Shown: piece after piece, positions 47,144 through 54,470 of the stretch
Position numbering within the stretch: position 1 is the stretch's first letter
Layout: the number at the start of each line of letters is the position of its first letter
Source: Exiguobacterium aurantiacum
Lineage (GTDB): Bacteria > Bacillota > Bacilli > Exiguobacteriales > Exiguobacteriaceae
NCBI RefSeq assembly: GCF_024362205.1
Contig: NZ_CP101462.1
Location: forward strand, 1,826,501 to 1,890,500
Direction: 5' to 3'
DNA: 64,000 bases
Translations under genes and position numbers: made by a program
Notes under the pieces: generated by a model
Databases searched by the model: none
What the model saw: the letters and a program-made list of their open reading frames with translations, nothing else
What the model was told of the DNA's origin: nothing

Positions 47144-48229
47144 TTACCTCGTTTCTTGTTCGCGCTCCTTCGCTCGAAGCTGCCCACAAGCCGCATCGAT
47201 ATCCGAACCTTGTTCGCGACGAATCGTCACGTTCACTTTTCGATCTTTGAGCACTTTTTCAAAGGCAAAAATTTGTTTACGTGGTGTGCGGACGTAGTCG
47301 CGCTCGAGCACGTGGTTGACTGGAATCAAGTTGACGTGGCATTTGACGCCTTTCAACAAGTCAGCGAGTTGATGCGCGTGTTCTTCCGTGTCGTTGACCC
47401 CGCCGAATAAACCGTATTCGAACGTGATGCGGCGACCGCTCTTCTCTGTATAGTAGTTGACGGCTTCCATCAACTTGTCCAAGTTGTAGGCACGGTTGAT
47501 TGGCATGAGACGTGTCCGAATCTCTGTCGTCGGTGCGTGAAGCGAGATGGCGAAGTTGATGCGCATCCCTTCATCGGCGAACTTGTAGATTTTCGGTACG
47601 ATCCCGCTCGTTGACACGGTGATGTGGCGTGAACCAATGTTCAAGCCGTCGTCGTGGTTGACCGTGCGCAAGAAACGCATCAATTCGTCATAGTTGTCGA
47701 ACGGCTCGCCGATACCCATGACGACGACCGAGTCGACACGTTCGCCGCTCGCGTCGAGCGCGCGTTGCACGTCGAGGACTTGGGCCGTGATTTCACCGGC
47801 TTCTAAGTTACGCTTCAAACCGCCGAGCGTCGAAGCACAGAACGTGCAACCGATGCGGCAGCCGACTTGTGTCGTGACACAGACCGAGTTACCGTACTCA
47901 TGGCGCATGAGCACCGTCTCGATCGAGTAGCCGTCTTGGAGCTCGAACAAGAACTTGATCGTTCCGTCCTTTGATTCTTGACGGACGAGTTCTTTCAACG
48001 TCGTCAATTGGAACGCCGCGTCTAATTTCTCGCGGAGTGGTTTCGAGACGTTCGTCATATCGTCGAACGATGTCACACGCTTGACGTACATCCAGTCATA
48101 TAACTGTTTCGCGCGGAACGATTTTTCTCCTGCCTCGATGAGCCATTGTTCGAGCTCCGAGTACGTGAGGGAATAGAGGGACGGCTTGGCACCGACTAAT
48201 GGATTTTTTTCAACTGCTTTTGGATTCAT
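47144..48229 (-). CDS. rlmN: RlmN, 23S rRNA/tRNA m2A methyltransferase
   Basis: 361 residues. Radical SAM enzyme that methylates A2503 of 23S rRNA and A37 of some tRNAs. The cluster motif Cys-x3-Cys-x2-Cys is in [15 protein letters not shown]-binding GIGEPFDNY; the methyl-carrying Cys near the C-terminus in [11 protein letters not shown]-terminal helical accessory domain (about 15-90). Confidence 0.98.
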
Positions 48230-48231
48230 GT

Positions 48232-49560
48232 TTATACCTCTTTCTTGAATGCGGCGATATAGAAACCGTCCGTCCCGAACGACGTCGGGAGTAATTTGAG
48301 TTCAGCGCGGTCCGATGACATCATCGGCCGCAATACTTGGGGAAGACGGTCTTGGAGTGTCTCATCCCACGTCAATCCGTTCGACAAAATGTAATCGGCC
48401 TGCTGTTCATTCTCAGTCGGGTCGATTGTACATGTCGAGTACACTAGCGTACCACCTCGTTTGAGGAGTGGCAAGACAGCGTCGATGATTTCACGTTGGA
48501 CTTTCGGGAGTCCGGCAAGGGCAGATTTGTCCTTCGTCCATTTGATGTCGGGCTTGCGACGGATGACACCGAGTCCCGAGCATGGGACATCGAGTAAGAT
48601 TCGATCGAAGCTTTCCGGTTCGAATTGGTCCCCGGCCTGGCGGGCATCGAGGGCAAGTGCGGTCACTCCATCGATATGCAGACGCTTCGCTTGACGTTCA
48701 ATCAACTTCGCTTTATGCGGATGCAAGTCGAGGGCGACGAGCGTTCCACCGTCCATGCGTTCGGCCGTATGCATCGCTTTTCCACCTGGTGCGGCACACG
48801 CGTCGAGCACGCGTTCCGCCTTCCCGGCTTGAAGCGCATCGGCGACAATCATTGAGCTCTCGTCTTGAATCGACAACAAGCCCATATCGATGAACGCCGT
48901 CGAGTGCACGTTTCCGGATTCGATGACGAGACCGTCCGCCGACAGCTGTGACCGCGACGCGACGACATCGACTTCGGCAAGCCGTTCAATCATCTCCTCA
49001 ACGGTGACGCGCTGGCGGTTGACCCGCACCGTGACCGGCGCCGGCTCATTGTTCAGTTTACACATCGCTTCGGTCGCTTCGACGCCGTACGTCTCCACCC
49101 ATTCAGCGACGAGCCAATCGGGATGGCTATGTTCGATGGCAATCCGTTCGGCGTCCGGCAACGTGCTCAAATCCGGGAACCCGTCCCGGATGACGTTGCG
49201 CAAAACACCGTTGACGAACTTGCCAGTGCCCGAGTGGCCCCGTTTTTTCGCGATCTCGACCGCTTCGTGCAACACGGCCCGATCCGGGATCTTGTCGAGA
49301 TAAAACAGTTGATAGACGCTCATCCGTAAGAGCGGTAAGACGAAACGATCCAATTTTTTAGGGTTTTGGACCCGCTTCTCTAAAATATAATCGAGCGTCC
49401 GTTTCCGGCCGAGCGTCCCGTAGACGAGCTCCGTGTAAAGGCCGACGTCTTTCGTCGCCAATTTCTTCTGTTTCAATAAATCGTTGACCGCAATCGTCGA
49501 ATAGGCGCCGCCTTGTTCGATTTTGATTAGCGTATCAAGCGCTGCTACTCGTACGTTCAT
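48232..49560 (-). CDS. rsmB: RsmB, 16S rRNA m5C967 methyltransferase
   Basis: 442 residues. N-terminal NusB-like RNA-binding domain (about 1-135), then NOP2/Sun-type SAM methyltransferase with [33 protein letters not shown] (PC Cys) and [11 protein letters not shown] (TC Cys nucleophile). It follows the def-fmt fusion by 1 bp. Confidence 0.97.
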
Positions 49561-49561
49561 A

Positions 49562-50947
49562 TTATCCTCCTAGTCGATCGCCGACTTGTAACTTTTGGCC
49601 GGCCCCACGCATAAACGTGGCCCCATCCATTCGTTTTTTACCAGATGGTTGCAAATCGACCACTTTAATGGCGACCGCGTCGCCTGTTGCGACGACAAAC
49701 CCATCTTCTTCAAGTCGTACAATCGTTCCCGGTTCACCCGTTCCTGTCGTTTTCGATCCGAAGAACAGTTTGACCCGTTCGCCCGCAATCGTCGTATACG
49801 CCGTTGGGAACGGATTCATCCCTCTGATATGGTTATAAATGTCTGCGCCGGAACGGGTCCAGTCAATCTGTTCCCGCTCGCGGCTGATGTTCGGTGCGAA
49901 CGTTACGTCACGCTCGTCTTGAGGCACGGCTTCAATCCAACCAGCAAGGAAGGCAGGAAGCGTCTTGAGCAACAAGTCCGATCCTGCGACCGCGAGCTTG
50001 TCGAACAACGTGCCGACCGTGTCCAATTCTTCAATCGGGACGACCGTGTTGGCAATCATATCGCCGGCATCGAGTTTATCGACCATGTACATGATCGTGA
50101 CGCCCGTCTCCTTGTCCCCGTCGAGGATGGCTTGATGGATCGGGGCACCGCCCCGATGTTTCGGCAAGAGCGAGGCATGGACGTTGATGGCGCCATGCTT
50201 CGGTGCTTCTAACAGTTCGGTCGGGACGATTTGTCCGTACGCCGCCGTCACGATCAAGTCCGGCTCGAGTGCCAAGATGTCGGCGTAATCGGTGCGCACC
50301 TTTTCAGGCTGTAACACCGGGATATCGTGGCGCAGGGCACACTCTTTCACCGGCGTCGGTTTCAGTTCGCGTTTTCGTCCGACCGGCTTGTCCGGTTGTG
50401 AGACGACACCTACGACATTGTATCCTTCTTCGAGCAAGCGCTCAAGTACGGATACGGCAAACGTCGGTGTGCCCATAAAGACGATCCGTTGATCCGTCCC
50501 TTTTTCTGGCACGGCGAGTTTGTCCGTGAACAACACCCCGTCGAGATGATCGATCTCATGTTGAATCGCCCGGGCGAAGAAACCGCTCGCTTTCACTTGT
50601 TGGTAGCGGCCTTTCATGTCTTGCGTCTTGACGACGATCGTCTCATGCCGTTCGACGAAACCGAACTCTCCCGGGATGCTTAAGCACCCTTCTAGGCCGA
50701 CCTCGCTTCCCGACGTCTCGATGATTTCTGGATTGATCAAGATGAGCGGACCGGTCTCGTCATCGGTATGGACGACGGCGAGCCGTTGGTTCAAGTTGAC
50801 CTGTGGGGCGGCCACGCCGACGCCGTCATATTCGTACATCGTGTCGAACAGTCGATCGACCGTCTGGCGCAACTTTTTATCAAACTTCGTCACCGGATCA
50901 CACGTGACCCGTAAAATCTCATTAGGGATCTCTACTACTTTATACAT
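49562..50947 (-). CDS. def-fmt: Bifunctional peptide deformylase / methionyl-tRNA formyltransferase fusion
   Basis: 461 residues in one uninterrupted frame. Residues 1-~148 are a peptide deformylase with all three motifs: GVGVAAPQ (42-49), EGCLS (86-90; Cys binds metal) and HEIDH (130-134). The deformylase C-terminal helix is cut to a short [10 protein letters not shown] linker. From about 154 (RIVFMGTP) the protein is a complete Fmt with the formyl-transfer triad Asn255, His257 and Asp293 in [17 protein letters not shown] and LDAGDM, and a C-terminal tRNA-binding barrel. The ATG at 50947 follows GAGGTGG; a GTG at 50962 is unlikely. In relatives def and fmt are separate neighbours between priA and rsmB, exactly this position. 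Activities of the two halves are opposed in the formyl cycle. Confidence 0.93.
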
Positions 50948-50958
50948 CTGGTTCCACC

Positions 50959-53283
50959 TCACATGAATACGTATGGGTTTACGTCGATACTCAATTGATA
51001 TTCTTTTTTGCTGATTGCCTTTGCTCGCGCCTGTTGCAACGCGGCGAGGACCGGATATAGCGCTTCAGGGTGTTTCGTCTTGATGAACAACTGATAGCGG
51101 TACAAGTTCTTTAGTTTCGACAGCGGCGCCGGCATCGGGCCGTTCAGCCGCGACTGCGCCACATGCGCCTCGACGAAATCAGAGGCGAACAGCTCGGCCT
51201 CGGCTTGGGCGACGAGCGGGCTCTCTGCTGCGAACGTGACGAGCGTGACGTACCAATACGGCGGATGGTTGCCGACTTGGCGCAACTGCATTTCACGGGC
51301 GAAGAACGACTCATAGTCGTGTTCGCTTGCCGTCTCGATGACGTAATGGTCCGGGTTGTACGTCTGGACGTACGCCTCTCCCGGTAAGCTGCCCCGTCCG
51401 GCCCGTCCGGCGACTTGGGTCACGAGCTGGAACGTGCGCTCGGTCGCCCGGAAATCGGGCATGCCGAGCGTCGCATCCGCTGCGAGCACGCCGACGAGCG
51501 TCACGTTCGGGAAATCGAGCCCTTTGGCAATCATCTGCGTACCGAGCAAAATGTCGGCTTCCCCATCTTCGAAGCGTTTCAACAGTTGTTCGTGCGAGCC
51601 TTTCCTAGACGTCGTGTCTTGGTCCATCCGGATGATGCGCGCCTCTGGGATCCGGTTCAACAGCTCGGTCTCGATTTTTTGCGTGCCGGTGCCGAACTGT
51701 TTGATTTTCTTACTGTCACACGTCGGACACTTCGACGGCATCCCAATCTCATAGCCGCAGTAGTGGCATTTGAGCCGGTCGCCGTGTTGATGGTACGTCA
51801 AGTTGACGGCACAGTGCGGGCAGGTGAGCCCTTCCCCGCAATCACGGCACATGACGAACGTCGTGAAGCCGCGACGGTTGAGCAAGATGACGCACTGTTC
51901 TTTTTTGGCGATGCGGTCGTTGATGGCGACGAATAAATCTTCCGAGAACATCGTCGTGTTGCCTTTGGCGAGCTCGCGCCGCATGTCGATAATATGGACG
52001 GGCGGCATCTCGCCCCCGTACCGTTCACTCAATTGCAGGTAGCGGTAGACACCTTTTTGGGCGCGGGCGTAAGACTCGAGCGACGGGGTCGCACTTCCGA
52101 GCACGACCGGACACTCATGGTAATGCGCCCGCCAAATCGCGACGTCGCGCGCATGATAGCGCGGGTTCTCTTCTTGCTTGTACGTCGTCTCATGCTCTTC
52201 ATCTAAGATGAGCAAGCCGATGTTTTCGAGCGGTGCGAAGATGGCCGAGCGGGCCCCGACGACGACATCGACTTCTCGTCGTTTGATTTTCCGCCATTCG
52301 TCGTACTTTTCGCCTTGCGATAGAGCGCTATGGAGCACGGCGACCCGGTCGCCGAAACGGCGTTTGAACCGTTTGACCATCATCGGCGTGAGCGAGATTT
52401 CCGGCACGAGCAAGATTGCCTGTTTGCCATCATCGACGACTTGACCGATCGCTTCGAGGTAGACCTCGGTCTTCCCGCTGCCGGTGACACCGTGCAAGAG
52501 TAACGTCTCCCCGGCTTCGGCGTCGCGGATGGCATGGACAGCCGTCGCTTGACTGTCATTCAATTCGACCGTCTCGACGACCTGTTCAATCGTCGCATAC
52601 GGGTCGCGGTTCAGTTCTACCTCGGTCACGTTGACGGCACCGAGCGACTCCATTTTTTGCAGTTGCGCGCGCGATAACCCGATTTGACGTAACGATGACC
52701 AATACATGCGCGGTACGTCCTGCAGCAACTGAATCGCTTCTTGTTGTTTCTTTGCCCGGGCCGGGATGAGCGTCGCATCGATGAGTTCAATGACGAGGTC
52801 CGTCTTGACCGTCCGTTTTTCTTTTAATACCGGCGCGAGCAAGATGTCCCCTTTTTTGGCGAGCGCCAAGATGATGGACTGCGTCTCTTTCGGATACTCG
52901 GAAAGATGGGTGCCGGCCCGAACGCCGTCTGGGAGCGTCTCGCCTTTGATTTCTTTGTCGTAGCTCACTTTCAGCGCCGCCGGCAGCATCGCTAGAAGCG
53001 CCGACGACCGGAAACAGAGCGTCGTCTCTTTCACGTGGGTCGATAAGTCGAGCAGTTCATCCGTGAGTGAAGACTCTTCATCCAATAACGCTTCGAGCGG
53101 TTTCAAGCCTTCCCGTGTCCCTTCCGACACACCGGTCACGATTCCGAGCAGGCGGCGTGAGCCGAACGGGACCGAGACGCGCATGCCCGGTTCGATCAAT
53201 GTCTCGAACTGGGGCGGCACTTCATAATCGAACGGCCGATCGATCGTGATGACCGGGGCGTCGACGTGGACGTGGGCGATCAT
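50959..53283 (-). CDS. priA: PriA, primosomal replication-restart helicase
   Basis: 774 residues. Recognises forks and reloads the replicative helicase. N-terminal 3'-DNA-binding domain (about 1-110), SF2 motor with [34 protein letters not shown], and a zinc region with eight Cys ([27 protein letters not shown]), followed by a QVAGRAGRG motif. Overlaps coaBC. Confidence 0.98.
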
Positions 53284-54470
53284 CGTAAATCTTCCTTAAA
53301 GTGGGTGAGCAACTCGACAGCGAGCTCGCGTTTGCTTTGACGAGGCAAGCGGACATGGGCCCCGTCCGCGCGGAACAACATGACCTCGTTGTCGTCAGAG
53401 CGGAAGCCGATATCCGGCTGCGACACATCGTTGGCGACGAGGTAATCGACCCGCTTGCGGGCGATTTTATCGCGCGCGTGTTGCTCGAGGTTCTCCGTCT
53501 CGGCCGCAAAGCCGACGAGGAGCTGATGCGTCTTCTTCTCACCGAGTGTTTTCAAAATATCGGTCGTCTCTTCAAGCTCGATCGTCAACGGCCCATGTAC
53601 TTTTTTATGTTTCTCGGTGTGGACCGTCTTCGGACGATAATCGGCGACAGCGGCCGATTTGATGACGAGATCTTGGTCATCGAAGCGTGCGAGCACCGTC
53701 GCGAGCATATCTGACCCGGATTCGACGGCGATGGCAGTTACACCGTCCGGTACCGGTACTTGCAACGGACCGTGGACGAGCGTGACGTAGGCTCCCATGT
53801 CGCGGGCCGCCTCGGCGAGCGCGACGCCCATCTTGCCCGACGAGTCGTTCGATAGGAACCGTACCGGGTCGATGCGTTCAACCGTCGGCCCCGCCGTGAT
53901 CAATACTTGCTTCCCGAGCAGATGTTTCGGGACGAACTGGCTCTCGATGATCCGGACGAGGTCTTCCGGTTCCGGGAGACGCCCTCCTCCGATCCAACCA
54001 CAAGCGAGGTTGCCGACGCCCGGTTCGATGATTTGATAGCCGAACGTTTTGAGCGTTTCGATATTGCGGCGTGTGGCCGGATGTTCGAGCATATTGACGT
54101 TCATCGCCGGTGAGACGATGACGGGGCACTTCGCGGCTAAAATCGAGGTCGTGATGAAGTCATCGGCAATACCGGCCGCGAGTTTCGCGATCATGTTGGC
54201 CGTTGCGGGTGCGACGACGATCAAATCACTCGTATCGACGACGTCGATGTGGGCGATTTTGGTCGGGTCGTGTTCCTCGAATACGTCGGTGTATACCGGA
54301 TTGCGGCTGAGCGCTTGAAACGTCGCTTTTCCGACGAACTCCTCGGCTGAAGCAGTCATCGCCACGCGCACGTTCGCACCGGCCTGGACGAGTTTCGACG
54401 TGAGCGCGCACGCCTTATACGCCGCGATGCCACCGCTCACACAAAGCAAGATATTCCGATCGTTCAACAT
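53280..54470 (-). CDS. coaBC: CoaBC, phosphopantothenoylcysteine synthase/decarboxylase
   Basis: 396 residues. Two steps of coenzyme A synthesis. N-terminal CoaC flavoprotein (about 1-185) with active His in AHIDV, SPAMNVNMLEHPAT and Cys in GNLACGWIGGGRLPEP; C-terminal CoaB with ITAGPTVERIDPVRFLSN and KSAAVADYRPK. Follows rpoZ after a hairpin. Confidence 0.98.
   Translation of the reverse strand: MLNDRNILLCVSGGIAAYKACALTSKLVQAGANVRVAMTASAEEFVGKATFQALSRNPVYTDVFEEHDPTKIAHIDVVDTSDLIVVAPATANMIAKLAAGIADDFITTSILAAKCPVIVSPAMNVNMLEHPATRRNIETLKTFGYQIIEPGVGNLACGWIGGGRLPEPEDLVRIIESQFVPKHLLGKQVLITAGPTVERIDPVRFLSNDSSGKMGVALAEAARDMGAYVTLVHGPLQVPVPDGVTAIAVESGSDMLATVLARFDDQDLVIKSAAVADYRPKTVHTEKHKKVHGPLTIELEETTDILKTLGEKKTHQLLVGFAAETENLEQHARDKIARKRVDYLVANDVSQPDIGFRSDDNEVMLFRADGAHVRLPRQSKRELAVELLTHFKEDLR

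Follow-up and report, generated by a model that had tools for sequence, protein, structure and literature searches.

In Bacillota, the joining of peptide deformylase (PDF, encoded by def) and methionyl-tRNA formyltransferase (Fmt) in one protein appears to have arisen at least twice. In the class that contains Thermaerobacter, otherwise represented here mostly by draft genomes, the fusion seems to be old and widespread, and one bifunctional chain is usually the only deformylase and the only formyltransferase of the cell, so that both addition and removal of the formyl tag would rest on a single polypeptide. We give this reading a probability of roughly 85%. The second lineage was recognized starting from a fusion gene in Exiguobacterium aurantiacum, in a 64-kb stretch of DNA that we refer to in its entirety as the window.

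A Deformylase-Formyltransferase Fusion Encoded in One Frame

The initial annotation of the window had proposed that one open frame encodes a deformylase with all three metal/catalytic motifs, joined through a linker of about ten residues to a full Fmt with its Asn-His-Asp triad, and this description was borne out. The gene, its domains, and its neighbors are as follows.

49562..50947, minus strand: def-fmt fusion gene, 461 aa, ATG to stop with no internal stop codon (Pfam and NCBIfam)
50510..50947, minus strand: peptide deformylase domain, residues 1-146 (PF01327, E 4.7e-48; motifs intact)
50492..50518, minus strand: inter-domain link, residues 144-152 (AVPEKGTDQ), overlapping the final three residues of the PF01327 match
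49961..50491, minus strand: Fmt catalytic domain, residues 153-329 (PF00551, E 1.3e-42, match 154-329)
49601..49891, minus strand: Fmt C-terminal domain, residues 353-449 (PF02911, E 1.5e-24)
50954..50959, minus strand: AGGTGG, a likely ribosome-binding site as judged from the sequence, overlapping the end of priA
50959..53283, minus strand: priA, upstream neighbor (Pfam PriA_3primeBD and PriA_C)
53280..54470, minus strand: coaBC, upstream (Pfam DFP and Flavoprotein)
48232..49560, minus strand: rsmB, downstream neighbor (Pfam Methyltr_RsmB-F and NusB)
47144..48229, minus strand: rlmN, downstream (Pfam RlmN_N and Radical_SAM)

Within this unbroken frame both enzymes score above the curated NCBIfam cut-offs: the deformylase half reaches 170.4 bits with TIGR00079 (curated cut-off 103.95), as well as 163.2 bits with PF01327 (cut-off 22.8), and the Fmt half reaches 331 bits with TIGR00460 (equivalog cut-off 201.5), with the PF00551 and PF02911 domains both matched. 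NVH and LDAGD are present in the Fmt half, and we take them to be the Asn-His-Asp triad. The link of nine residues, AVPEKGTDQ, lies between FTDKL of the deformylase and RIVFMG of Fmt. The three metal/catalytic deformylase motifs ([22 protein letters not shown]), defined as quoted from PMC12690207, are all present and intact, including [13 protein letters not shown] and QHEIDHLDG. A tRNA scan of the 64-kb window found none.

The genome comprises 3.15 Mb in two contigs, the second of which (G000:C2, 111 kb) appears to be a plasmid akin to those of Exiguobacterium, as judged from its first 20 kb (L103). The four best plasmid records for these 20 kb are from Exiguobacterium. Of the 456 records that match at all, 296 are from Enterococcus, through a shared stretch; at about 2.9-9.8 kb, pieces share 99.8% identity with plasmid regions of Enterococcus and Staphylococcus whose annotation includes aminoglycoside resistance genes.

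Conservation in the Exiguobacterium Family

The fusion was recovered as a full-length, single-frame, stop-free match in all 38 genomes that constitute our whole sample of both the family and the order (68-100% identity), including 19 of 19 genomes of the genus and all of the sister-genus genomes examined. The initial annotation had raised the question of whether all Exiguobacterium carry the fusion, which those sampled do, and whether a frameshift or missing stop could account for it; an assembly error or missed stop has a negligible probability, as nothing was found in its favor and the open frame is present in each of the 38 genomes, which come from separate species.

Strong purifying selection acts on each half: dN/dS is 0.03-0.07 for both in five within-genus pairs (L003 against L010, L011, L012, L015, and L021), values that are rough because several pairs approach saturation in dS. 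Non-synonymous change in the link exceeded that in either half in four of these pairs. Across the 38 genomes, the link varies in both sequence and length, the HE motif and the Fmt motif being separated by 63, 69, 72, 78, or 84 bases, and the length changes involve whole codons, so that the frame is kept. This variability between species, together with GTG codons near the link in some of them, could be taken to mean that the two halves are made separately from an internal start or end up separate through cleavage at the link, but no start codon located between the halves is common to all 38 genomes, and the only ATG that they share falls within Fmt, in its first strand. We regard separate products as very improbable.

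The window's genome encodes a second, stand-alone deformylase elsewhere, for which the initial annotation had proposed a search (G000:C1:1958922-1959419, in a 190-aa frame). A second deformylase match was found in 19 of 19 genomes of the genus, and a PF01327 scan detected two deformylases in each of seven Exiguobacterium-family genomes. Since the second def is present and, in the two pairs tested, under purifying selection, the main deformylase of this family is not necessarily the fused one. In one genome, the second match (G012:C1:2262742-2263098) holds a TAA inside the matched stretch and is perhaps a broken copy.

Separate Genes in Other Bacilli and in Pseudomonadota

The claim of the initial annotation that the two genes are separate in Bacillales agrees with our searches of Bacilli. 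Among the matches listed for 360 Bacilli genomes outside the family (398 less the 38 family genomes; weaker matches fall outside this list), 57 run through both genes in the same frame, each of them interrupted by one or more stop codons, so that no unbroken def-fmt frame was found among them. In Pseudomonadota, 81 of 378 genomes passed E 1e-110, and it is to these, leaving aside the other 297, that the stop count applies: 80 matches span both genes and each of the 80 carries at least one stop. A fusion in Pseudomonadota was rejected on this basis for these 80 genomes.

A Second Fused Lineage in Another Class of Bacillota

A search of 398 Bacillota genomes with a six-row profile that itself includes fusions yielded 98 listed matches spanning both genes, 89 with stops and nine unbroken. 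One of the interrupted matches (G779:C6:30214-31803) holds 11 stop codons, far above the others listed, perhaps owing to a longer gap between the genes. The nine comprise the window's own genome and eight others from families f67 (four), f163 (two), f135 (one), and f166 (one). In searches centered on two of these eight, all eight fell in one class, an assignment that follows the grouping of the genome collection searched, NCBI placing Thermaerobacter and Candidatus Fermentithermobacillaceae in different classes.

In the match search of this second class, both domains were found in one open frame in 70 of the 151 genomes listed, a count that includes cut or partial copies (G790, G816, and G846), one copy found in two pieces (G880), and one genome, G891, in which the matched stretch counts a stop and the gene's own frame is open; 50 of the 151 genomes lack a match at E 1e-60 and are assigned neither as fused nor as separate. 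Profile checks identified the fusion in 43 genomes from 24 families, namely 42 sampled genomes plus locus L113, which may equal one of the sampled genomes (L109 is taken as G795 on the basis of contig number and position, and L197, also counted, is cut by a contig end), and Pfam confirmed two of the 43 as well. The broader profile search of genome contigs returned at least three fused loci among the 80 matches listed. The fusion is present in at least 24 families of this class; limitation to Exiguobacterium, a point on which the initial annotation had called for a check, does not hold, and the unbroken fusions of the second class rule out uniqueness to one genus. The class is mixed, with the genes being separate in 14 of 40 chosen regions, from 11 families.

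Among the fused genomes is G451, taken as Thermaerobacter marianensis on the strength of its chromosome of 2,844,696 bases (the length given in PMC3035304), and fused loci L104 and L113 are titled Candidatus Fermentithermobacillaceae. The gene order in G451 is priA, def-fmt, zinc peptidase, rsmB, that is, the same kind of neighborhood as in the window. Many of the second-class fusions have a junction of the form DRAxxVxExPPESxLRVVFMGTP, and much of the tail-like deformylase segment is kept. In Thermaerobacter-type fusions (L096 3247-4899, L097, and L098), the C-terminal domain of Fmt is interrupted by a long insertion rich in Gly, Pro, and Ala, and in some second-class families (L212, L220, L222, L223, L228, L233, and L236) the domains are joined by longer links of low complexity, with a high content of Pro, Gly, Ala, and Glu.

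The Exiguobacterium fusion itself is already known, as it is reported in PMC12690207. Our literature searches on the fusion did not turn up a second-class fusion in print, and the terms Thermaerobacter, Limnochord, and Fermentithermobacill have zero occurrences in the main text of PMC12690207. What is new here, beyond the literature found, is the fusion in another class of Bacillota.

Evidence for at Least Two Origins

A quick tree was built from 88 chosen rows, 39 fused and 49 separate, picked from 99 fused and 134 separate loci that include duplicates of one genome. In this tree, the fusions from Exiguobacterium cluster together with support, nested within the separate genes of Bacilli. When the 39 fused rows were constrained to a single clade, the AU test rejected the constraint (p 0.000424), and with it a common origin of all the fusions. 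The corresponding constraint on the 31 second-class fused rows was not rejected (p 0.665) and scored slightly better than the free tree, which scatters these rows and implies six changes for the fused label. Two origins would account for these results, and further gains or losses within the second class are possible.

The Fused Protein Is Usually the Only Deformylase Found in the Second Class

The PF01327 scan covered 46 genomes, among them 30 fused second-class genomes along with the seven from the Exiguobacterium family. In 27 of the 30, the scan found no deformylase besides the fused one; the other three (G813, G646, and G842) have two. Because many of the genomes are drafts (completeness 85-100%), some second deformylases may have been missed. 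G451 and G405, each assembled as a single contig with completeness of 99-100%, have one deformylase each. All 30 genomes gave a single match to the fused query at E 1e-60, and thus no second close Fmt was seen in them, the threshold being one that passes only close relatives.

Lineages that usually show no deformylase besides the fusion amount to a natural test, since the fused form must be enough there for an essential step of bacterial life. Deformylase is an antibiotic target, and inhibitors would, in such lineages, hit a protein that also carries Fmt.

Probable Function and Origin of the Fusion

The fusion is, with high probability, a genuine bifunctional enzyme that tethers an intact deformylase to an intact methionyl-tRNA formyltransferase on one chain, and very probably the two act as independent enzymes. 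The Fmt half would formylate initiator Met-tRNA and the PDF half would remove the formyl group from nascent chains, each doing its usual job on its own substrate. The likeliest effect of the fusion would be to supply the two activities in a one-to-one ratio, not to create a new reaction, because no intermediate that could be channeled from one half to the other is apparent; we know of no common intermediate that passes between the two active sites. In the Exiguobacterium family, the fusion most likely had a single origin in the family ancestor, starting from neighboring def and fmt genes in the order priA-def-fmt-rsmB. What was lost between them presumably comprised the stop codon of def, most of its short tail, and the start codon of fmt. 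This route of origin, as well as the absence of separate products and of channeling, we infer.

A selected function beyond co-production, whereby tethering positions the two enzymes close to the ribosome or adjusts the balance between formylation and deformylation, is conceivable but doubtful. The fusion appears to have arisen at least twice and was kept over many species each time, the domain order is the same in both lineages, and the AlphaFold2 model of the fusion (mean pLDDT 96.4, pTM 0.87) hints at, or is at least compatible with, a defined arrangement of the two halves, which the solved structures 4iqf (Fmt) and 1ws0 (PDF) each fit in their respective part. Against these points, the two enzymes differ in substrates and, as far as we know, in sites of action, and the link that connects them in the Exiguobacterium family is short and varies. 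Moreover, def and fmt are already co-localized in 58% of species (PMC12690207), so that stop loss could yield a fusion without selection. Co-production of two independent enzymes remains our preferred reading, and the repeated origins, from which it follows that cells tolerate the two enzymes being joined, make a benefit of tethering a directly testable question.

The initial annotation had further suggested that the fused deformylase lost a ribosome-contacting C-terminal tail for which Fmt substitutes. In Escherichia coli PDF, a positively charged C-terminal helix binds the ribosome at L22 (PMC8712518 and PMC3130931). The fused deformylase, if taken to end at FTDKL, seven residues past HExxHxxG, is indeed 8-21 residues shorter than 39 stand-alone Bacilli deformylases (39 tails from the 40 loci L044-L083), but the tails of the latter, counted after HExxHxxG, have only 15-28 residues with net charges of -8 to +1, 36 of them negative. 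Among 27 Pseudomonadota tails from 25 loci chosen by title, by comparison, 24 are of 29 residues or longer and 25 have a net charge of +4 to +10. The tail lost in the fusion thus looks like a short, mostly acidic one, and the lost part is unlikely to have been a helix of the E. coli type. In the second class, furthermore, much of the tail-like segment is retained and the genes are fused nonetheless. Replacement of a ribosome-binding tail by Fmt is accordingly very improbable and not supported.

Comparison with Known Systems

The closest counterpart is the def-fmt fusion published for four Exiguobacterium reference genomes (PMC12690207, Mol Biol Evol, November 2025), with the window representing another genome of that group: the same single-frame order, def then fmt, is found, along with a second stand-alone PDF in the window's genome, and a second PDF is reported there for all Exiguobacterium genomes. 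In the same study, a codon-optimized E. alkaliphilum fusion complemented an E. coli def-fmt mutant and both activities were shown, a result that pertains to an optimized gene in another host, E. coli, rather than to the native chain. In other Bacilli and in Pseudomonadota, neighboring def and fmt genes encode the same enzymes in the same order but differ in having at least one stop in every spanning match listed. Among the 60 chains of solved structures listed, none covers both halves; the nearest solved relatives, Fmt of Bacillus anthracis (4iqf) and PDF of Bacillus cereus (1ws0), are separate proteins. ArnA, too, is a bifunctional enzyme with a formyltransferase domain of the same superfamily, but it functions in a sugar pathway and has a different partner domain.
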